This document shows, piece by piece, positions 5,829 through 19,500 of a DNA stretch of 64,000 nucleotides. The notes below the pieces were generated by a model. It saw only the letters and a list, made by a program, of their open reading frames with translations. It had not been told where the DNA came from and did not search any database. How positions within the stretch are numbered: position 1 is the stretch's first letter; each line of letters begins with the position of its first letter. Made by a program: the position numbers and the translations under genes. Source of the stretch: an uncultured Dysgonomonas sp. (GTDB lineage Bacteria; Bacteroidota; Bacteroidia; Bacteroidales; Dysgonomonadaceae); assembly GCA_945273835.1 (NCBI GenBank), contig CALYPL010000007.1, forward strand, positions 1 to 64,000, given 5' to 3'.

Positions 5829-5850
5829 TAAATTGATAAATACATCAGGG

Positions 5851-6558
5851 ATGAGCAAATCTAAACTATATAAAATTAATCAGCGATTGGATGTTTTAGG
5901 TTCAATCAAAGATATAAGTTGGTTTCTGATACTCTTCCTGTTTTTCGAGTTTATCTGGAAAGTCTGTGTGCATCAAGGTGAAGATGAAAGTATACTGATC
6001 GTATTAGGCAAAGACATGACTTCATGGGCTTATCCGCTCAGTAGATTTACGGCTAAAACGGTTTATTGGGTTATACACGATCTGTTCGGATACTCAGATT
6101 TCCAAGTTGATGGAATACTTCTTTATTTTAAAGACTCTTTATTTAAAACAAATATTGTTTGGGGATGTGTGGGAGTTAAACAATTGCTGATGTTTACGTT
6201 CATCATCTTATTTTATTTCGGCCCCCTTAAAAAGAAAATCTGGTTTATCCCTTTGTTTATTTTAGTTTTGATACTGATTAATATTTTACGGATCACCATT
6301 ATTTGCTTCATCACTAAAAATCCATTTCCGGAGTGGTTTATTGGGGTAAATACTTGGTACAATAATCGGATTTGGATAAACAATAAAGAAACTTTTAACT
6401 TATTTTATCAAGATTGGTTCAATGTATTTCATCATGACATTTTCACTTGGATCTATTATGACGGGATTTTATTTCTGATCTGGCTTTTCTGGGAAGAACG
6501 CTTTAATAAACCATATCAGAAGTTGAAAAATAAAATTAAATCTGATTCTCAAGCTTAA
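5851..6558 (+). CDS. Exosortase/archaeosortase-family membrane transpeptidase
   Basis: This 235-residue polytopic membrane protein shows the conserved trio of exosortases: a Cys in WGCVGVKQ (C106), an Arg after a helix in INILRIT (R147), and a His in FHHDIFTW (H194 or H195), each at a membrane boundary. Exosortases cut proteins at a C-terminal motif next to a membrane helix and probably attach them to a carrier. I moved the start from the TTG at 5833 to ATG 5851 because a -7-like box lies at 5821-5828. It has no extra EpsI-like domain. Its 3' end overlaps that of a GT2 glycosyltransferase by 4 bases. The subfamily cannot be assigned by eye; a possible substrate is at 19032. Confidence 0.8.
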   Translation: MSKSKLYKINQRLDVLGSIKDISWFLILFLFFEFIWKVCVHQGEDESILIVLGKDMTSWAYPLSRFTAKTVYWVIHDLFGYSDFQVDGILLYFKDSLFKTNIVWGCVGVKQLLMFTFIILFYFGPLKKKIWFIPLFILVLILINILRITIICFITKNPFPEWFIGVNTWYNNRIWINNKETFNLFYQDWFNVFHHDIFTWIYYDGILFLIWLFWEERFNKPYQKLKNKIKSDSQA

Positions 6559-7736
6559 TTCTTATTCTTTTTAAGAAAGCGTTTAAAATTCATACGATCA
6601 TACATTTGAGTTATATCAAGTAATGGCAGTGAAAATATAAACCGACCAGCTTTGAAGTATTTCGCTGAATTATTTAAAACTATCAATTGTTTTAGGTATC
6701 GCACCAGAAACAAAATAATACTTGAGCCAAGCATTATTAAATCGGCTGAAAAAGCTGAATAAATTATTGAAACGACAAACAGTATGTAAAACAAGCAACG
6801 TGTTGTATATTCAGCTGAAAAAGATTTTGCGCTAAATCCTTCAAAATACTTATTTAACAACAATCCACTGCGTTTTAATTGCTTCCATAAAGACTTGCTA
6901 TATAAATCTGTCTCAATAAAAGATGCTTGTGACAAGGCAACAGATGTATTAGTTCCATTCATTATTCTGTTGATAAACAAATCTTCTCCGTTTGCAATAT
7001 TTAGTAACGATGAAAATCCTTTATGAGCCATGAATAACTCTTTACGAAAAGCAACATTTCTAAAAACTCCGGTATAAGGTTTATTTTTTAATGCCATAGA
7101 AAGATATTGCAAACTATACAATAAATTCCTAAAGCGCGCTCCTCTGTTAAATAGTTTATGCCTGTCTGTTTTGTAGTATGAATAACCAAGCACAACTTCG
7201 GTGCTTTCATTCATTTCAGCCATCATGGATGAAATCCAATTGCTGGATATAGGCTTGCAATAGGGATCTGTAAAAAGCAGAATATCACCAGTAGTTGCTT
7301 TAATACCTAAAGTCAGCGTTAATTTACGTCGAGCAAAATTCTTATCCGGTGATATAGGTAAATAAGTACTATATAAATGTGGATATTTGAGTTTGAGGGA
7401 TTGGAGCAAAATATCACTCTCATCGGTTGATCCGTCGTTAACAACTATTACTTCAAAATTTGGATAGTCTTGCTCAAGCACCAAGGGTAAGTTTTGTGAT
7501 AGATACTCGGATTCGTTTTCTGACACGATAATAACGGAAACCTTCGGGCAATCAGATGGTGTTGCCAGATTCTTGTTTTCGGAGTTTCGTCTATTTGCTT
7601 CTTTTAATGGTTTCTGATAATATGAAATGTAGTAATATAACTGGATAATTAAGCATATAAAAAGCGTGCTTAACAAAATAATATCAATAATATCAAAATT
7701 AATTGAATGCTGAATTTGTTGAATTACTTTTTCCAT
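6555..7736 (-). CDS. Membrane-anchored GT2 family glycosyltransferase
   Basis: The 393-residue protein has an N-terminal membrane helix (about residues 16-38), a GT-A catalytic domain, and two to three C-terminal helices. The GT2 signature KVSVIIVSENESEYL, then VIVVNDGSTDES, is clear. The metal-binding DxD position reads FTDPYC. A QxxRW-like motif is not obvious. Such enzymes transfer a sugar to a lipid or polymer at the inner membrane; the acceptor is unknown. It has no same-strand partner: lysA upstream ends with its own terminator, and the exosortase-like gene converges on it. That neighbourhood suggests, without proof, a link to glycan or lipid anchoring of sorted proteins. Confidence 0.85.
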   Translation of the reverse strand: MEKVIQQIQHSINFDIIDIILLSTLFICLIIQLYYYISYYQKPLKEANRRNSENKNLATPSDCPKVSVIIVSENESEYLSQNLPLVLEQDYPNFEVIVVNDGSTDESDILLQSLKLKYPHLYSTYLPISPDKNFARRKLTLTLGIKATTGDILLFTDPYCKPISSNWISSMMAEMNESTEVVLGYSYYKTDRHKLFNRGARFRNLLYSLQYLSMALKNKPYTGVFRNVAFRKELFMAHKGFSSLLNIANGEDLFINRIMNGTNTSVALSQASFIETDLYSKSLWKQLKRSGLLLNKYFEGFSAKSFSAEYTTRCLFYILFVVSIIYSAFSADLIMLGSSIILFLVRYLKQLIVLNNSAKYFKAGRFIFSLPLLDITQMYDRMNFKRFLKKNKN

Positions 7737-15496: not shown

Positions 15497-16428
15497 TCTT
15501 GTCTAAATCATCTATTATAATTAATCGCCAACATCGGCTACAATCATTTTTCTTTTCAAGTTAGAGTATTACATTAAATAAAATATCAATTTAAAATACA
15601 CCTAATATAATAGACCGCTACCCATTAAAACACTTTTACTTAATCATTTTTTTATTGTGTTGACAGCGCGTAAAAAAACCATGAACCATAAAGGATTAAA
15701 GACTAAATATAAAAAAGATTAGACTTAAAATGCAATTAAAGCTTTGACTCTGCAATCAAGCAGTTTGATTAAAATTTGAACGAATTAGCAACAAATATTG
15801 TTTTTATATTAAATAATCGCATCCTAAAAAGTTTTAATTCTTTTTGTCAATGTTAAATATAAACAAAATGATTTCAGAGTTAATAAATTTATATACATAA
15901 GCATTTGCATATTATATTTTATACCGACTACATTTTAATCTTTAAAAGTCAGAAATTTAAAAGGATTTATTTTCCACTATTATGTGACTAAACTATTTTT
16001 TCTAATATTATAAATATGAAAATAAATATATAATTTTTTAATACTATTAAGGAACAACCATCTAAGTTTAGACTGTGCCTTAAGTATCAATTTCTAAAAA
16101 ACTTGGCTTATAATATCACAATATCCACTTAGGCTTTAATCTTTTATGAAGCAAAAAAAGGAGCGTGATTAATGTTCAAGATTAAGATTTAAGCATAATT
16201 TATAAAAAGATTTAATAAAAAAATACTCTTATGAAAACAATGAAAACCATTTATACACCTAATCATCAGGTTTTTAATTACAAAAAATATTCTACTATAA
16301 ATCAAGATATTATTTTCATCAATCATTATTTTAAGAAAAATGAACTATTTTTGTATGCTAAATTAAAACCAGCCAAAAGAATTAACGAAAAAATATAATA
16401 CGTTAGGAGAATTTAAACAAAAAAAAAT
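15497..16428 (+). other. Long AT-rich non-coding stretch upstream of the T9SS protein
   Basis: About 0.93 kb with no recognisable gene, RNA or repeat. It is visibly richer in A and T than its neighbours, and all reading frames are broken except for one 55-codon ORF at 16231. It ends at the promoter box of the T9SS gene. The usual spacing between genes in this window is under 200 bases, so this gap stands out. It could be a decayed gene, an upstream regulatory region or an integration scar; I see no direct evidence for any of these. Confidence 0.6.
16231..16398 (+). CDS. Small ORF of 55 codons, uncertain
   Basis: ATG to TAA gives a lysine-, asparagine- and tyrosine-rich peptide beginning MKTMKTIYTPNHQVF. 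It is too short for the ORF track. No family is recognised, no promoter box was seen close upstream, and composition follows the AT-rich background. An open frame this long in such AT-rich DNA is slightly unusual, which is the only reason to list it. Confidence 0.2.
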   Translation: MKTMKTIYTPNHQVFNYKKYSTINQDIIFINHYFKKNELFLYAKLKPAKRINEKI

Positions 16429-16436
16429 TAACTTTG
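16429..16436 (+). promoter_or_regulatory. -7 promoter box for the T9SS/PIGDA pair
   Basis: TAACTTTG is a full match to TAnnTTTG. It lies 90 bases before the ATG at 16526. A TTAG at 16403-16406 is 22 bases upstream, slightly too far for the -33 element. The implied leader is about 80 bases. Confidence 0.5.
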
Positions 16437-16525
16437 TGGCTGAATGTTTTAATGACACAATTCTTTTATATTGTAATAATGAGCCAATTTAGTATTAAAT
16501 TGGTTAACTTTATAAAGCTACTGTA

Positions 16526-19000
16526 ATGAAAATCAGAGTGCTATTAGTTCTAACATTGATTTTTCCCTTTTCTTTAAAAGGACAGATTCAGGAGAATTTA
16601 ACTGAAAATGATAATAGGGCAAAGAATACAATTTTTTACAACAGAGGAGATATGTATGTTGCGCCCAATAAATCTGACGCCAATACATCTACCATTTTTG
16701 TTCAAGGATCAATTAAAGTTGTCGTTGGTAGTAATATCCGCCAAATGGGTGTTACTTCGCTAATCGGCGATTTTATAAGTAGTGATACCGACAATGCAAA
16801 TTCAAGCAACAGAAATATCTTTTTAAACACTCCTTCTCAGCCAAGTACAGGTACAATAAGATTTATGAATGCCCATAATATGGAAAATCCATTATCTGTT
16901 GCCTATGGTCAAGCTACGAATACCGGCAACGGTAAGAAATCAGTTTTCGGGAATATTTCAGAATTGACAGAGCTCAAAGACATCAGACTAAATACGAAAC
17001 AAGAGATCAGACTTGAGGGTGGTGCAAACAAAAAACATGATTACATAGACTTCCCAAATGTGGAGCTAGCAGACAATACCTATGTAGCTTTAAAAGCCGA
17101 TGCTGCGGCAACAATAAAAAAACTAATAACAAATTATGGATCCGTATTCTCTGTTGAGGGGCGTTACCAACGTAGTGGTGGTGTCCCAGGAATCAATGGC
17201 GAAGGAATACTATATGGACATCTCATATTAAGAGAAAAATCAGAGAGAAAATTCAAAGCAGTTACAGACCCCAATGCCATTTTTTCAAACGGGACCCTTC
17301 AAAGTAATTACTCATATCATATGTTAGATGTATCATTATATGATTATTCAGATTTTGGAACAAACAAGAACCGTCCTACGTCTGATAAATTTACGGATGC
17401 AGCAGTACATTTAAGTGGAATAACCTCACCTTTCAAAAAGCTAAGCAATAGTTATTTTATGTTCCATACAATCTTTAATCCGACAAAAATATGGGACAAA
17501 TTTGAGCCAAATATCAATCCTAAAGAATTTATAAATGCAGGAGAAGGATATACGGTTGCCATGGAACTATCTGACAATGACCATTCTGATATTGAATCAA
17601 ACTGGCATGTCAATCGTGAAGAACGTGCAGCAGGAGGATTTCAATTTTCGACATTATTCTTAGCCCAGAAATCAAATTTCTTAATCGGCAGTAAAAGGAA
17701 AATAAAAGATCCGATTAGTCAAAATGAGTTAACAAATACTGATTTTCAAAATTATTGGGAAAATGAAGAGTTTTTAAATACATCTTTGAGTTCCTCAAAC
17801 GACATTGTAAAGGTTGAATTAAAAGAAACAAGAGATTTACCAAATCAAAGATCTAAATTCTTTTTAGCAAATCCTTTTTTAGCACCATTCGAATTAACAG
17901 CATTAATGCATGGTATAGAAGCCAATAGCGAGGATGCTCGTAAATTGGGTGTAACTGCCGGCAATGATCCTGCATCATATAATCTTAACTCTGCATTCTG
18001 GGTTTTAAACCAATCTGCGTTAGAATACAAGCCTAATATAATGGCTAATTTTTACCGCTTAAATTATCTAAGCTATAAGAGGGCAGGCGCAACCGGATAT
18101 TTAGGAGTAGATGAGGTTAGCAGTCGTTATTTTATTGCACCTCAACAAATATTTGCGGTTGAGGTCGGCAACCTTCCAAATAAAGTGGAATTCAATTTTC
18201 ACCCCGATTACGTTTCACATAACCACTTAATAGCCACTAAAAGCGGTATAGAACAAACAATAAAAGATGAGTTTCTTATTCAAGTTATTGATGAAGATGA
18301 CAATACAGAAGACCGACTTGCAGTAGTTTTTCGAGATGATGCAACATCTGCTTATGGAGAAAGAGGCGACAAATATGACGATAGAAAAGACGACTTGAAA
18401 TATCGCTTAAATACAAAAGTCGGAATAATGGAAGAACAACGTAGGGCCGCCATATACACTAAAACAATTGACGGTAAAGAAATGCGTACAAATGCTGTGC
18501 CTACTAATACCAAATCTTTGCCTCTTTATGTAACACCTACAGTTACCCCAAAAAGGTTGGTATTAAAACCTTACCGATTGGAAACACTCCAATCAGTTGA
18601 AGGAGTATGGCTAGAGGATAAACAACAGAAAAACATTATTCAATTGCATCCCGATACAGAATACGCATTTGAATCAACAATCGAGAATGATAGATATGCC
18701 CAAGAAAATAGATTTGTTCTGCATTTTTCAAAATTAGACATAAATGATAATATTGCTGATACACAGTCTCCAATATTTTGCTACTATCAAAACTCTATTT
18801 TATTTATTAGAGGGTTAAGCTCTATTGACATTAATAGTAAGGTTGAAATATTCGACCTGCAAGGAAGATTGATAACGCAAACAAAAATAGATAATGCACC
18901 TGATATGTCGTATGCTAAACATCTGGATATCGGAACTTATATAGTTAGAATCACAGGTAACAGAAATTACACGACTAAGATCATGAGTTTATCAAAATAA
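16526..19000 (+). CDS. Large secreted protein with T9SS type A C-terminal sorting domain
   Basis: The 824-residue protein has a signal peptide (MKIRVLLVLTLIFPFSLKGQ) and ends in a classic type A sorting domain: VEIFDLQGRLITQTKI, then LDIGTYIVRITG and a short basic tail. Such proteins cross the outer membrane through the type IX system, and the tail is removed by PorU, usually with attachment to A-type LPS. The body is beta-rich with no enzyme motif I recognise. The next gene, 31 bases downstream, encodes a small protein with an exosortase-type tail, suggesting co-transcription. Function is unknown. Confidence 0.8.
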   Translation: MKIRVLLVLTLIFPFSLKGQIQENLTENDNRAKNTIFYNRGDMYVAPNKSDANTSTIFVQGSIKVVVGSNIRQMGVTSLIGDFISSDTDNANSSNRNIFLNTPSQPSTGTIRFMNAHNMENPLSVAYGQATNTGNGKKSVFGNISELTELKDIRLNTKQEIRLEGGANKKHDYIDFPNVELADNTYVALKADAAATIKKLITNYGSVFSVEGRYQRSGGVPGINGEGILYGHLILREKSERKFKAVTDPNAIFSNGTLQSNYSYHMLDVSLYDYSDFGTNKNRPTSDKFTDAAVHLSGITSPFKKLSNSYFMFHTIFNPTKIWDKFEPNINPKEFINAGEGYTVAMELSDNDHSDIESNWHVNREERAAGGFQFSTLFLAQKSNFLIGSKRKIKDPISQNELTNTDFQNYWENEEFLNTSLSSSNDIVKVELKETRDLPNQRSKFFLANPFLAPFELTALMHGIEANSEDARKLGVTAGNDPASYNLNSAFWVLNQSALEYKPNIMANFYRLNYLSYKRAGATGYLGVDEVSSRYFIAPQQIFAVEVGNLPNKVEFNFHPDYVSHNHLIATKSGIEQTIKDEFLIQVIDEDDNTEDRLAVVFRDDATSAYGERGDKYDDRKDDLKYRLNTKVGIMEEQRRAAIYTKTIDGKEMRTNAVPTNTKSLPLYVTPTVTPKRLVLKPYRLETLQSVEGVWLEDKQQKNIIQLHPDTEYAFESTIENDRYAQENRFVLHFSKLDINDNIADTQSPIFCYYQNSILFIRGLSSIDINSKVEIFDLQGRLITQTKIDNAPDMSYAKHLDIGTYIVRITGNRNYTTKIMSLSK

Positions 19001-19031: not shown

Positions 19032-19418
19032 ATGAAATTGAAATTTAAAATATTAGTTCTGACTATTTCAATTCTAAGTATATTATTAGGTGGTAATATT
19101 AAAGTATATGCTTATAATGATTACTCTGATGCCACTTTAGCTCCTACCAACGGAGAAAAGCCTTCAGAATCTTTCCTTCAAAGAAGCAAGAAATCACTGG
19201 CATTGGACATGCAAGGTGTATCTTCCAGCTCAATAACAACTTTTTCATCTAATCCATTTTCCGACCCGGACGATCTCTTCGAAGATATTGGAGAAATAAA
19301 CGAAGGGAATATGGGTTCGAGTCCAATCGGAGATGCTACATTACCAATAATACTGTCTTTAATATTGTTATTTTTAGTTTATAGAGGTGTAACTATAAAC
19401 ATCCGGAAGAACTTATAG
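19032..19418 (+). CDS. Small exported protein with exosortase-type C-terminal signal (PIGDA-helix-basic tail)
   Basis: The 128-residue protein has a signal peptide (cleavage probably after KVYA, residue 27), a low-complexity acidic/serine-rich mature part, and a three-part tail: PIGDA (residues 98-102), a hydrophobic helix (about 103-120) and a basic end INIRKNL. This order matches PEP-CTERM-like sorting signals cut by exosortases, although the motif differs from PEP. The alternative is a simple C-terminal membrane anchor. It follows a T9SS cargo gene and is closed by a strong terminator, so the two form one unit. The exosortase-like gene at 5851 is a possible processing enzyme. Confidence 0.65.
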   Translation: MKLKFKILVLTISILSILLGGNIKVYAYNDYSDATLAPTNGEKPSESFLQRSKKSLALDMQGVSSSSITTFSSNPFSDPDDLFEDIGEINEGNMGSSPIGDATLPIILSLILLFLVYRGVTINIRKNL

Positions 19419-19441
19419 TTTGACATACATAATATATAAAT

Positions 19442-19468
19442 AAACAGCCGGATTATTTCCGGCTGTTT
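19442..19468 (+). terminator. Strong terminator after the PIGDA protein gene
   Basis: Perfect 11-bp stem AAACAGCCGGA/TCCGGCTGTTT with a 5-base loop TTATT, followed by an AT-rich run. It lies 24 bases after the stop codon. Confidence 0.85.
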
Positions 19469-19500
19469 ATTTATATAAAATTCAATCTGATTATGGTCTA

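Follow-up and report, generated by a model that had tools for sequence, protein, structure and literature searches.

An exosortase-superfamily protein of Dysgonomonas and its probable small client encoded behind a T9SS cargo gene

The described systems closest to the locus considered here are the typed exosortases and their small client proteins. The EpsH/XrtA-PEP-CTERM system combines an enzyme of the same superfamily, with the same catalytic trio, and a tripartite C-terminal signal. In XrtX/PID-CTERM (NF046081/NF046080) of Bacteroidota, the clients are small secreted proteins that bear a short signal at the C terminus; elsewhere in the Bacteroidales, such clients likewise lie behind T9SS cargo genes or adjoin an exosortase gene. 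XrtF (TIGR04128) of Flavobacteriia, together with a small protein associated with it, likewise represents an exosortase system in T9SS bacteria. Flavobacterium johnsoniae lacking XrtF or this small protein shows biofilm, zorb, and sand-colonization defects in the same pattern as after loss of PorU or PorZ, and the delta-xrtF strain shares its defects with T9SS attachment-complex mutants (PMC10936215). This overlap agrees with, rather than proves, cooperation between exosortases and the T9SS. The same study treats the substrates of Bacteroidetes exosortases as an open question and as future work for F. johnsoniae (PMC10936215). A report on haloarchaea describes archaeosortase substrates as lipid anchored (PMC7157517). 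PorU, the T9SS sortase, resembles these enzymes in processing the C termini of surface proteins in T9SS bacteria, but it is an outer-membrane enzyme of the gingipain family that acts on T9SS C-terminal domains (CTDs) (PMC7468200) and is unrelated to the inner-membrane exosortases. In the literature that we searched, we found no paper that connects a T9SS cargo to the substrate of an exosortase, nothing on PID-CTERM, and nothing relevant on XrtX. Relative to that literature, the substrate assignment and the T9SS coupling reported below are new, whereas the enzyme superfamily is known.

The analysis concerns a window (i.e., the whole stretch of 64,000 nucleotides) of contig CALYPL010000007.1 from an uncultured Dysgonomonas sp., which contains the following features.

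5851..6558, + strand: exosortase/archaeosortase family protein, 235 amino acids (aa) (TIGR04178, PF09721, invariant trio, AlphaFold2 model)
6555..7736, - strand: GT2 membrane glycosyltransferase, convergent neighbor (PF00535, 59.7 bits)
16526..19000, + strand: T9SS type A cargo, 824 aa, with an N-terminal Sec signal and a C-terminal Por_Secre_tail at 18815-18985 (TIGR04183)
19032..19418, + strand: probable exosortase substrate, 128 aa, with a signal peptide, a disordered middle, and a C-terminal sorting signal (homologues, AlphaFold2 model)
19317..19415, + strand: putative C-terminal sorting signal of that protein, i.e., SPIGD motif, hydrophobic helix, and basic tail (IRKNL) (alignment; AlphaFold2 helix 100-126)
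19433..19477, no strand: 20-pair hairpin just 3' of the small gene (scan-level evidence only)

The open reading frame at 5851-6558 (ATG start; alternative TTG start at 5833) had been read in the earlier note as an exosortase-like gene with a Cys-Arg-His trio, and both points held. Its product matched the superfamily model TIGR04178 (exo_archaeo) with 52 bits (cutoff, 23) and PF09721 with 37.8 bits (cutoff, 25.7), and all 25 orthologues also matched TIGR04178. Residues Cys106 (TGT, 6166-6168), Arg147 (CGG, 6289-6291), and His194 (CAT, 6430-6432) are invariant in the 25 orthologues and were kept in 41 of 41 further homologue rows, which cover other Bacteroidales families and include some refetched copies of the same genes. 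The histidine had previously been given as H194/195; position 195 is an arginine in most relatives, and the conserved residue is H194. In a confident, helical AlphaFold2 model (pLDDT, 90), the three residues sit at or in predicted helices. Searches of the PDB by sequence and by fold gave no solved relative, and a search of the phage collection gave no match. Judged by its sequence, the gene encodes a genuine member of the already known exosortase superfamily.

As for its type, for which the earlier note had suggested a search against XrtF, XrtX, and similar models, only the superfamily-level match was obtained: the protein scored below the cutoff of every typed exosortase model. The best-scoring typed model was XrtX (NF046081; 37 bits against a cutoff of 170); XrtF (TIGR04128) gave 31 bits against 90 and XrtA 24 bits against 208, and an assignment to XrtX or XrtF was rejected on these scores. 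The enzyme also differs from XrtX in that a longer stretch separates its Arg and His helices, and the locus differs from EpsH/XrtA-PEP-CTERM in having neither a PEP motif nor an EPS operon. We classify the enzyme as an ordinary superfamily member from an untyped branch.

The exosortase gene was found in 23 of the 25 Dysgonomonas genomes. A contig search with the exosortase alignment gave matches that included D. mossii, D. hofstadii, and further named Dysgonomonas species, whereas a contig scan with the single protein gave none. The two genomes without a detected exosortase (G006 and G009) carry the small gene described below. Since the syntenic region is broken in G009, where the contig stops 193 nt short of the BamG gene of the syntenic block, and missing from the assembly of G006, which has no BamG gene at all, the absences are likely, though unproven, assembly gaps.

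The candidate client emerged from a scan of the neighborhoods of distant exosortase homologues. These neighborhoods encode secreted proteins of small size that end in a motif, a helix, and a basic tail, and the same scan flagged the gene at 19032-19418 in the window, a probable substrate beside a T9SS cargo gene that the earlier note had overlooked. Its product (MKLKFK...SPIGDATLPIILSLILLFLVYRGVTINIRKNL, 128 aa) has the general features of an exosortase client, i.e., a signal peptide followed at the C terminus by a motif, a helix, and a basic tail. No Pfam or NCBIfam model matched it. In the AlphaFold2 model, the chain is disordered except for one helix in the signal peptide, a short one at 47-51, and another at the C terminus (100-126). 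A homologue is present once per genome in 23 of the 25 genus genomes, the two misses being only 51% and 55% complete. The best-conserved part of the alignment is the C-terminal tail (GxPIGDxxLPI-helix-YRGVTTSRRKNN), and a second motif, (E/D)LPSxSYL, lies close to the mature N terminus. An LPSxSY(L/Y)-like motif is kept in the window protein and in the small open reading frames of two other loci (L138 and L139), in contrast to the unconserved middle part, and may be a binding or processing site. The homologue in G002 (L086:1492-1878) is interrupted by a TGA in frame, although the reading frame is well conserved apart from this, and is either a pseudogene or the product of an assembly error.

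In Dysgonomonas, the small gene is not adjacent to the exosortase gene, which lies 12.5 kb away. It starts 31 nt behind the cargo gene 16526-19000, whose product matched TIGR04183 at its C terminus (38.1 bits in the genome search and 32.4 bits in the protein scan; cutoff, 23) and has an orthologue in 23 of the 25 genus genomes. Every copy of the small gene with a readable upstream gene lies 30 to 87 nt behind a T9SS-CTD cargo gene. The hairpin at 19433-19477 is likely the (bidirectional) terminator of the unit formed by the cargo and small protein genes. On the 5' side of the cargo gene, positions 15497-16525 comprise about 1 kb of AT-rich DNA with no sizeable open reading frame, which is unusually long for this gene-dense stretch. 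The Bacteroidetes promoter pattern TTTG-N-TAnnTTTG was searched for and occurred at chance level.

That the tail and the exosortase occur together in the rest of the family was a falsifiable prediction, and the outcome was in its favor. In a search with the tail profile, the top two genomes outside the genus were G036 (E = 5.7e-4) and G029 (E = 0.005), i.e., the two non-genus family genomes in this search that have an exosortase, while the ten family genomes without an exosortase gave nothing below an E value of 0.1. The matches in G036 and G029 are diverged proteins, both small and secreted; they bear LPSxSYY and P(L/V)G(E/D) motifs and are encoded directly behind T9SS cargo genes.

A T9SS cargo gene, a small C-terminal-signal gene, and an exosortase gene stand in a row in genomes of three other Bacteroidales families (G400, locus L080; G396, L063; and G227, L166), with the small gene lying between the other two in G400 and G396. 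Since the G400 exosortase belongs to the branch that is sister to Dysgonomonas (support for the joint clade, 1.0), while those of G396 and G227 fall in another major branch of the tree, this cassette does not reflect one local event. A wider comparison was made with PID_CTERM (NF046080), an NCBIfam C-terminal signal whose proteins adjoin XrtX-like exosortases in these genomes. Among 393 Bacteroidales genomes, 76 have both PID_CTERM and an exosortase, 52 have only an exosortase, and 17 have only PID_CTERM (odds ratio, 21; since the genomes are related, the Fisher P values overstate their independence). At least one of the 17 genomes without an exosortase match (G266, L169) holds a true exosortase that the search missed. 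Among the best 30 PID_CTERM loci, 12 immediately follow a T9SS-tailed gene and about ten adjoin an exosortase gene, with L166 of G227 doing both. All 20 tested upstream partner genes carry a T9SS tail, compared with 0 of 4 control neighbors. The window protein and its G029 and G036 counterparts were not matched by PID_CTERM (cutoff, 26 bits), and the window system differs in its PIGD motif in place of PIDGG and in having one client per genome. PID-CTERM proteins also come in a second kind (60 to 90 aa), which often consists almost solely of a signal peptide, a proline-rich AQPPPPPP stretch, and the PIDGG tail; these proteins adjoin XrtX-like exosortases with no T9SS gene (L155, L156, L157, L159, L161, L163, L168, and L169).

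On the basis of these observations, we consider it probable that the exosortase at 5851-6558 is an inner-membrane enzyme dedicated to one client, the T9SS-coupled small protein at 19032-19418. The enzyme family, the invariant trio, the substrate-type C terminus, the one-to-one co-occurrence, and the coupling to the cargo gene are drawn from the data. Against a dedicated client count the nonadjacency of the two genes in Dysgonomonas, the lack of a PID_CTERM match, the XrtX score far below its cutoff, and the two genomes (G006 and G009) with a client and no detected exosortase. The first of these points, together with the strict coupling of the small protein to the T9SS cargo, would fit an ordinary membrane-anchor helix that is never cut in a T9SS partner protein, with the exosortase acting elsewhere or on a nonprotein substrate. 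We regard this as improbable, given that the best-conserved part of the protein is the motif, helix, and basic tail at its extreme C terminus, that a comparable small gene lies beside the exosortase gene in three other families, that the tail and the exosortase co-occur in the family, and that no further candidate tail was found in the window. A different objection is that the small protein might be only one of many clients, as in PEP-CTERM/XrtA genomes or multicopy PID-CTERM genomes, and up to nine PID_CTERM copies per genome do occur in other Bacteroidales. With the tail profile, each genus genome gave a single significant match, also those of 4 to 5 Mb, which makes a larger client set unlikely, although clients with unrelated tails would escape this profile.

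The earlier note had instead tied the exosortase to the GT2 glycosyltransferase gene at 6555-7736, and the 4-base tail-to-tail overlap that it described agrees with the coordinates. Such a neighbor could make the glycan acceptor, as do the EPS genes around XrtA/EpsH; exosortases are associated with polysaccharide genes in the literature (PMC7468200), and among the 25 family loci, 20 have GT2 directly next to the exosortase gene, as does G422. However, since the two genes converge (i.e., they share no transcript), their order is merely syntenic, and several orthologous loci have lost the adjacency, the link is unsupported. To the extent that the loci cover it, the order BamG-coaX-exosortase-GT2-lysA-aspartate kinase is kept in the genus, while GT2 is replaced or displaced in G024 (L023), G029 (L065), and G036 (L025), and an insert separates it from the exosortase gene in G007 and G016. 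Almost all of the Bacteroidales loci inspected outside the family have unrelated neighbors instead. A GT2 partnership was thus rejected as conserved gene order rather than coupling; we give it little credence and regard GT2 as probably a syntenic bystander.

Under the preferred reading of a dedicated exosortase and client, we infer cleavage of the client, its acceptor, and its functional tie to the T9SS cargo. The proposed sequence of export, retention, cleavage, and transfer follows the established exosortase/archaeosortase scheme. After export by Sec, the C-terminal helix would keep the client in the inner membrane, its basic tail lying on the inner side. The exosortase would then cut it next to the (G/S)P(I/V)GD motif by Cys106-His194-Arg147 chemistry, and the new C terminus may be set free, although its transfer to an acceptor (membrane or glycan) is more likely. 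The client is encoded with the T9SS cargo and probably serves that cargo as a partner, an anchor, or an assembly factor. As a more tentative suggestion, which we think possible but doubtful, the exosortase and the T9SS may form one surface-assembly pathway, in which the processed and covalently anchored small protein retains, folds, or anchors the coencoded cargo. If this is true, the Bacteroidales have a route of T9SS surface attachment apart from PorU/A-LPS.

The interest of the locus lies in the assignment of this single T9SS-coupled client rather than in the enzyme. For culturable species such as Dysgonomonas mossii, it names one candidate substrate per genome and connects it with one T9SS cargo gene; the open substrate question thus becomes a one-enzyme, one-client test, and the assignment suggests cooperation between two C-terminal sorting systems (i.e., exosortase and T9SS).

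That a T9SS bacterium has a second sorting enzyme had been expected to be notable but proved to be common. Since an exosortase relative (E ≤ 0.001) was detected in 128 of the 393 Bacteroidales genomes, 372 of which have SprA, such enzymes are not exceptional in T9SS-bearing members of the order; the 20 listed SprA-negative genomes yielded none, which counts in favor of the preferred reading. One Dysgonomonas MAG with 6% contamination carries an additional exosortase of greater divergence (40% identity) at G020:C490:9330-9860, which could be a contaminant. Near another exosortase locus, L079:2639-3514 encodes an Lnb-like protein of 292 aa (36 bits, far below the cutoff) with a strong C-terminal helix and a basic tail.
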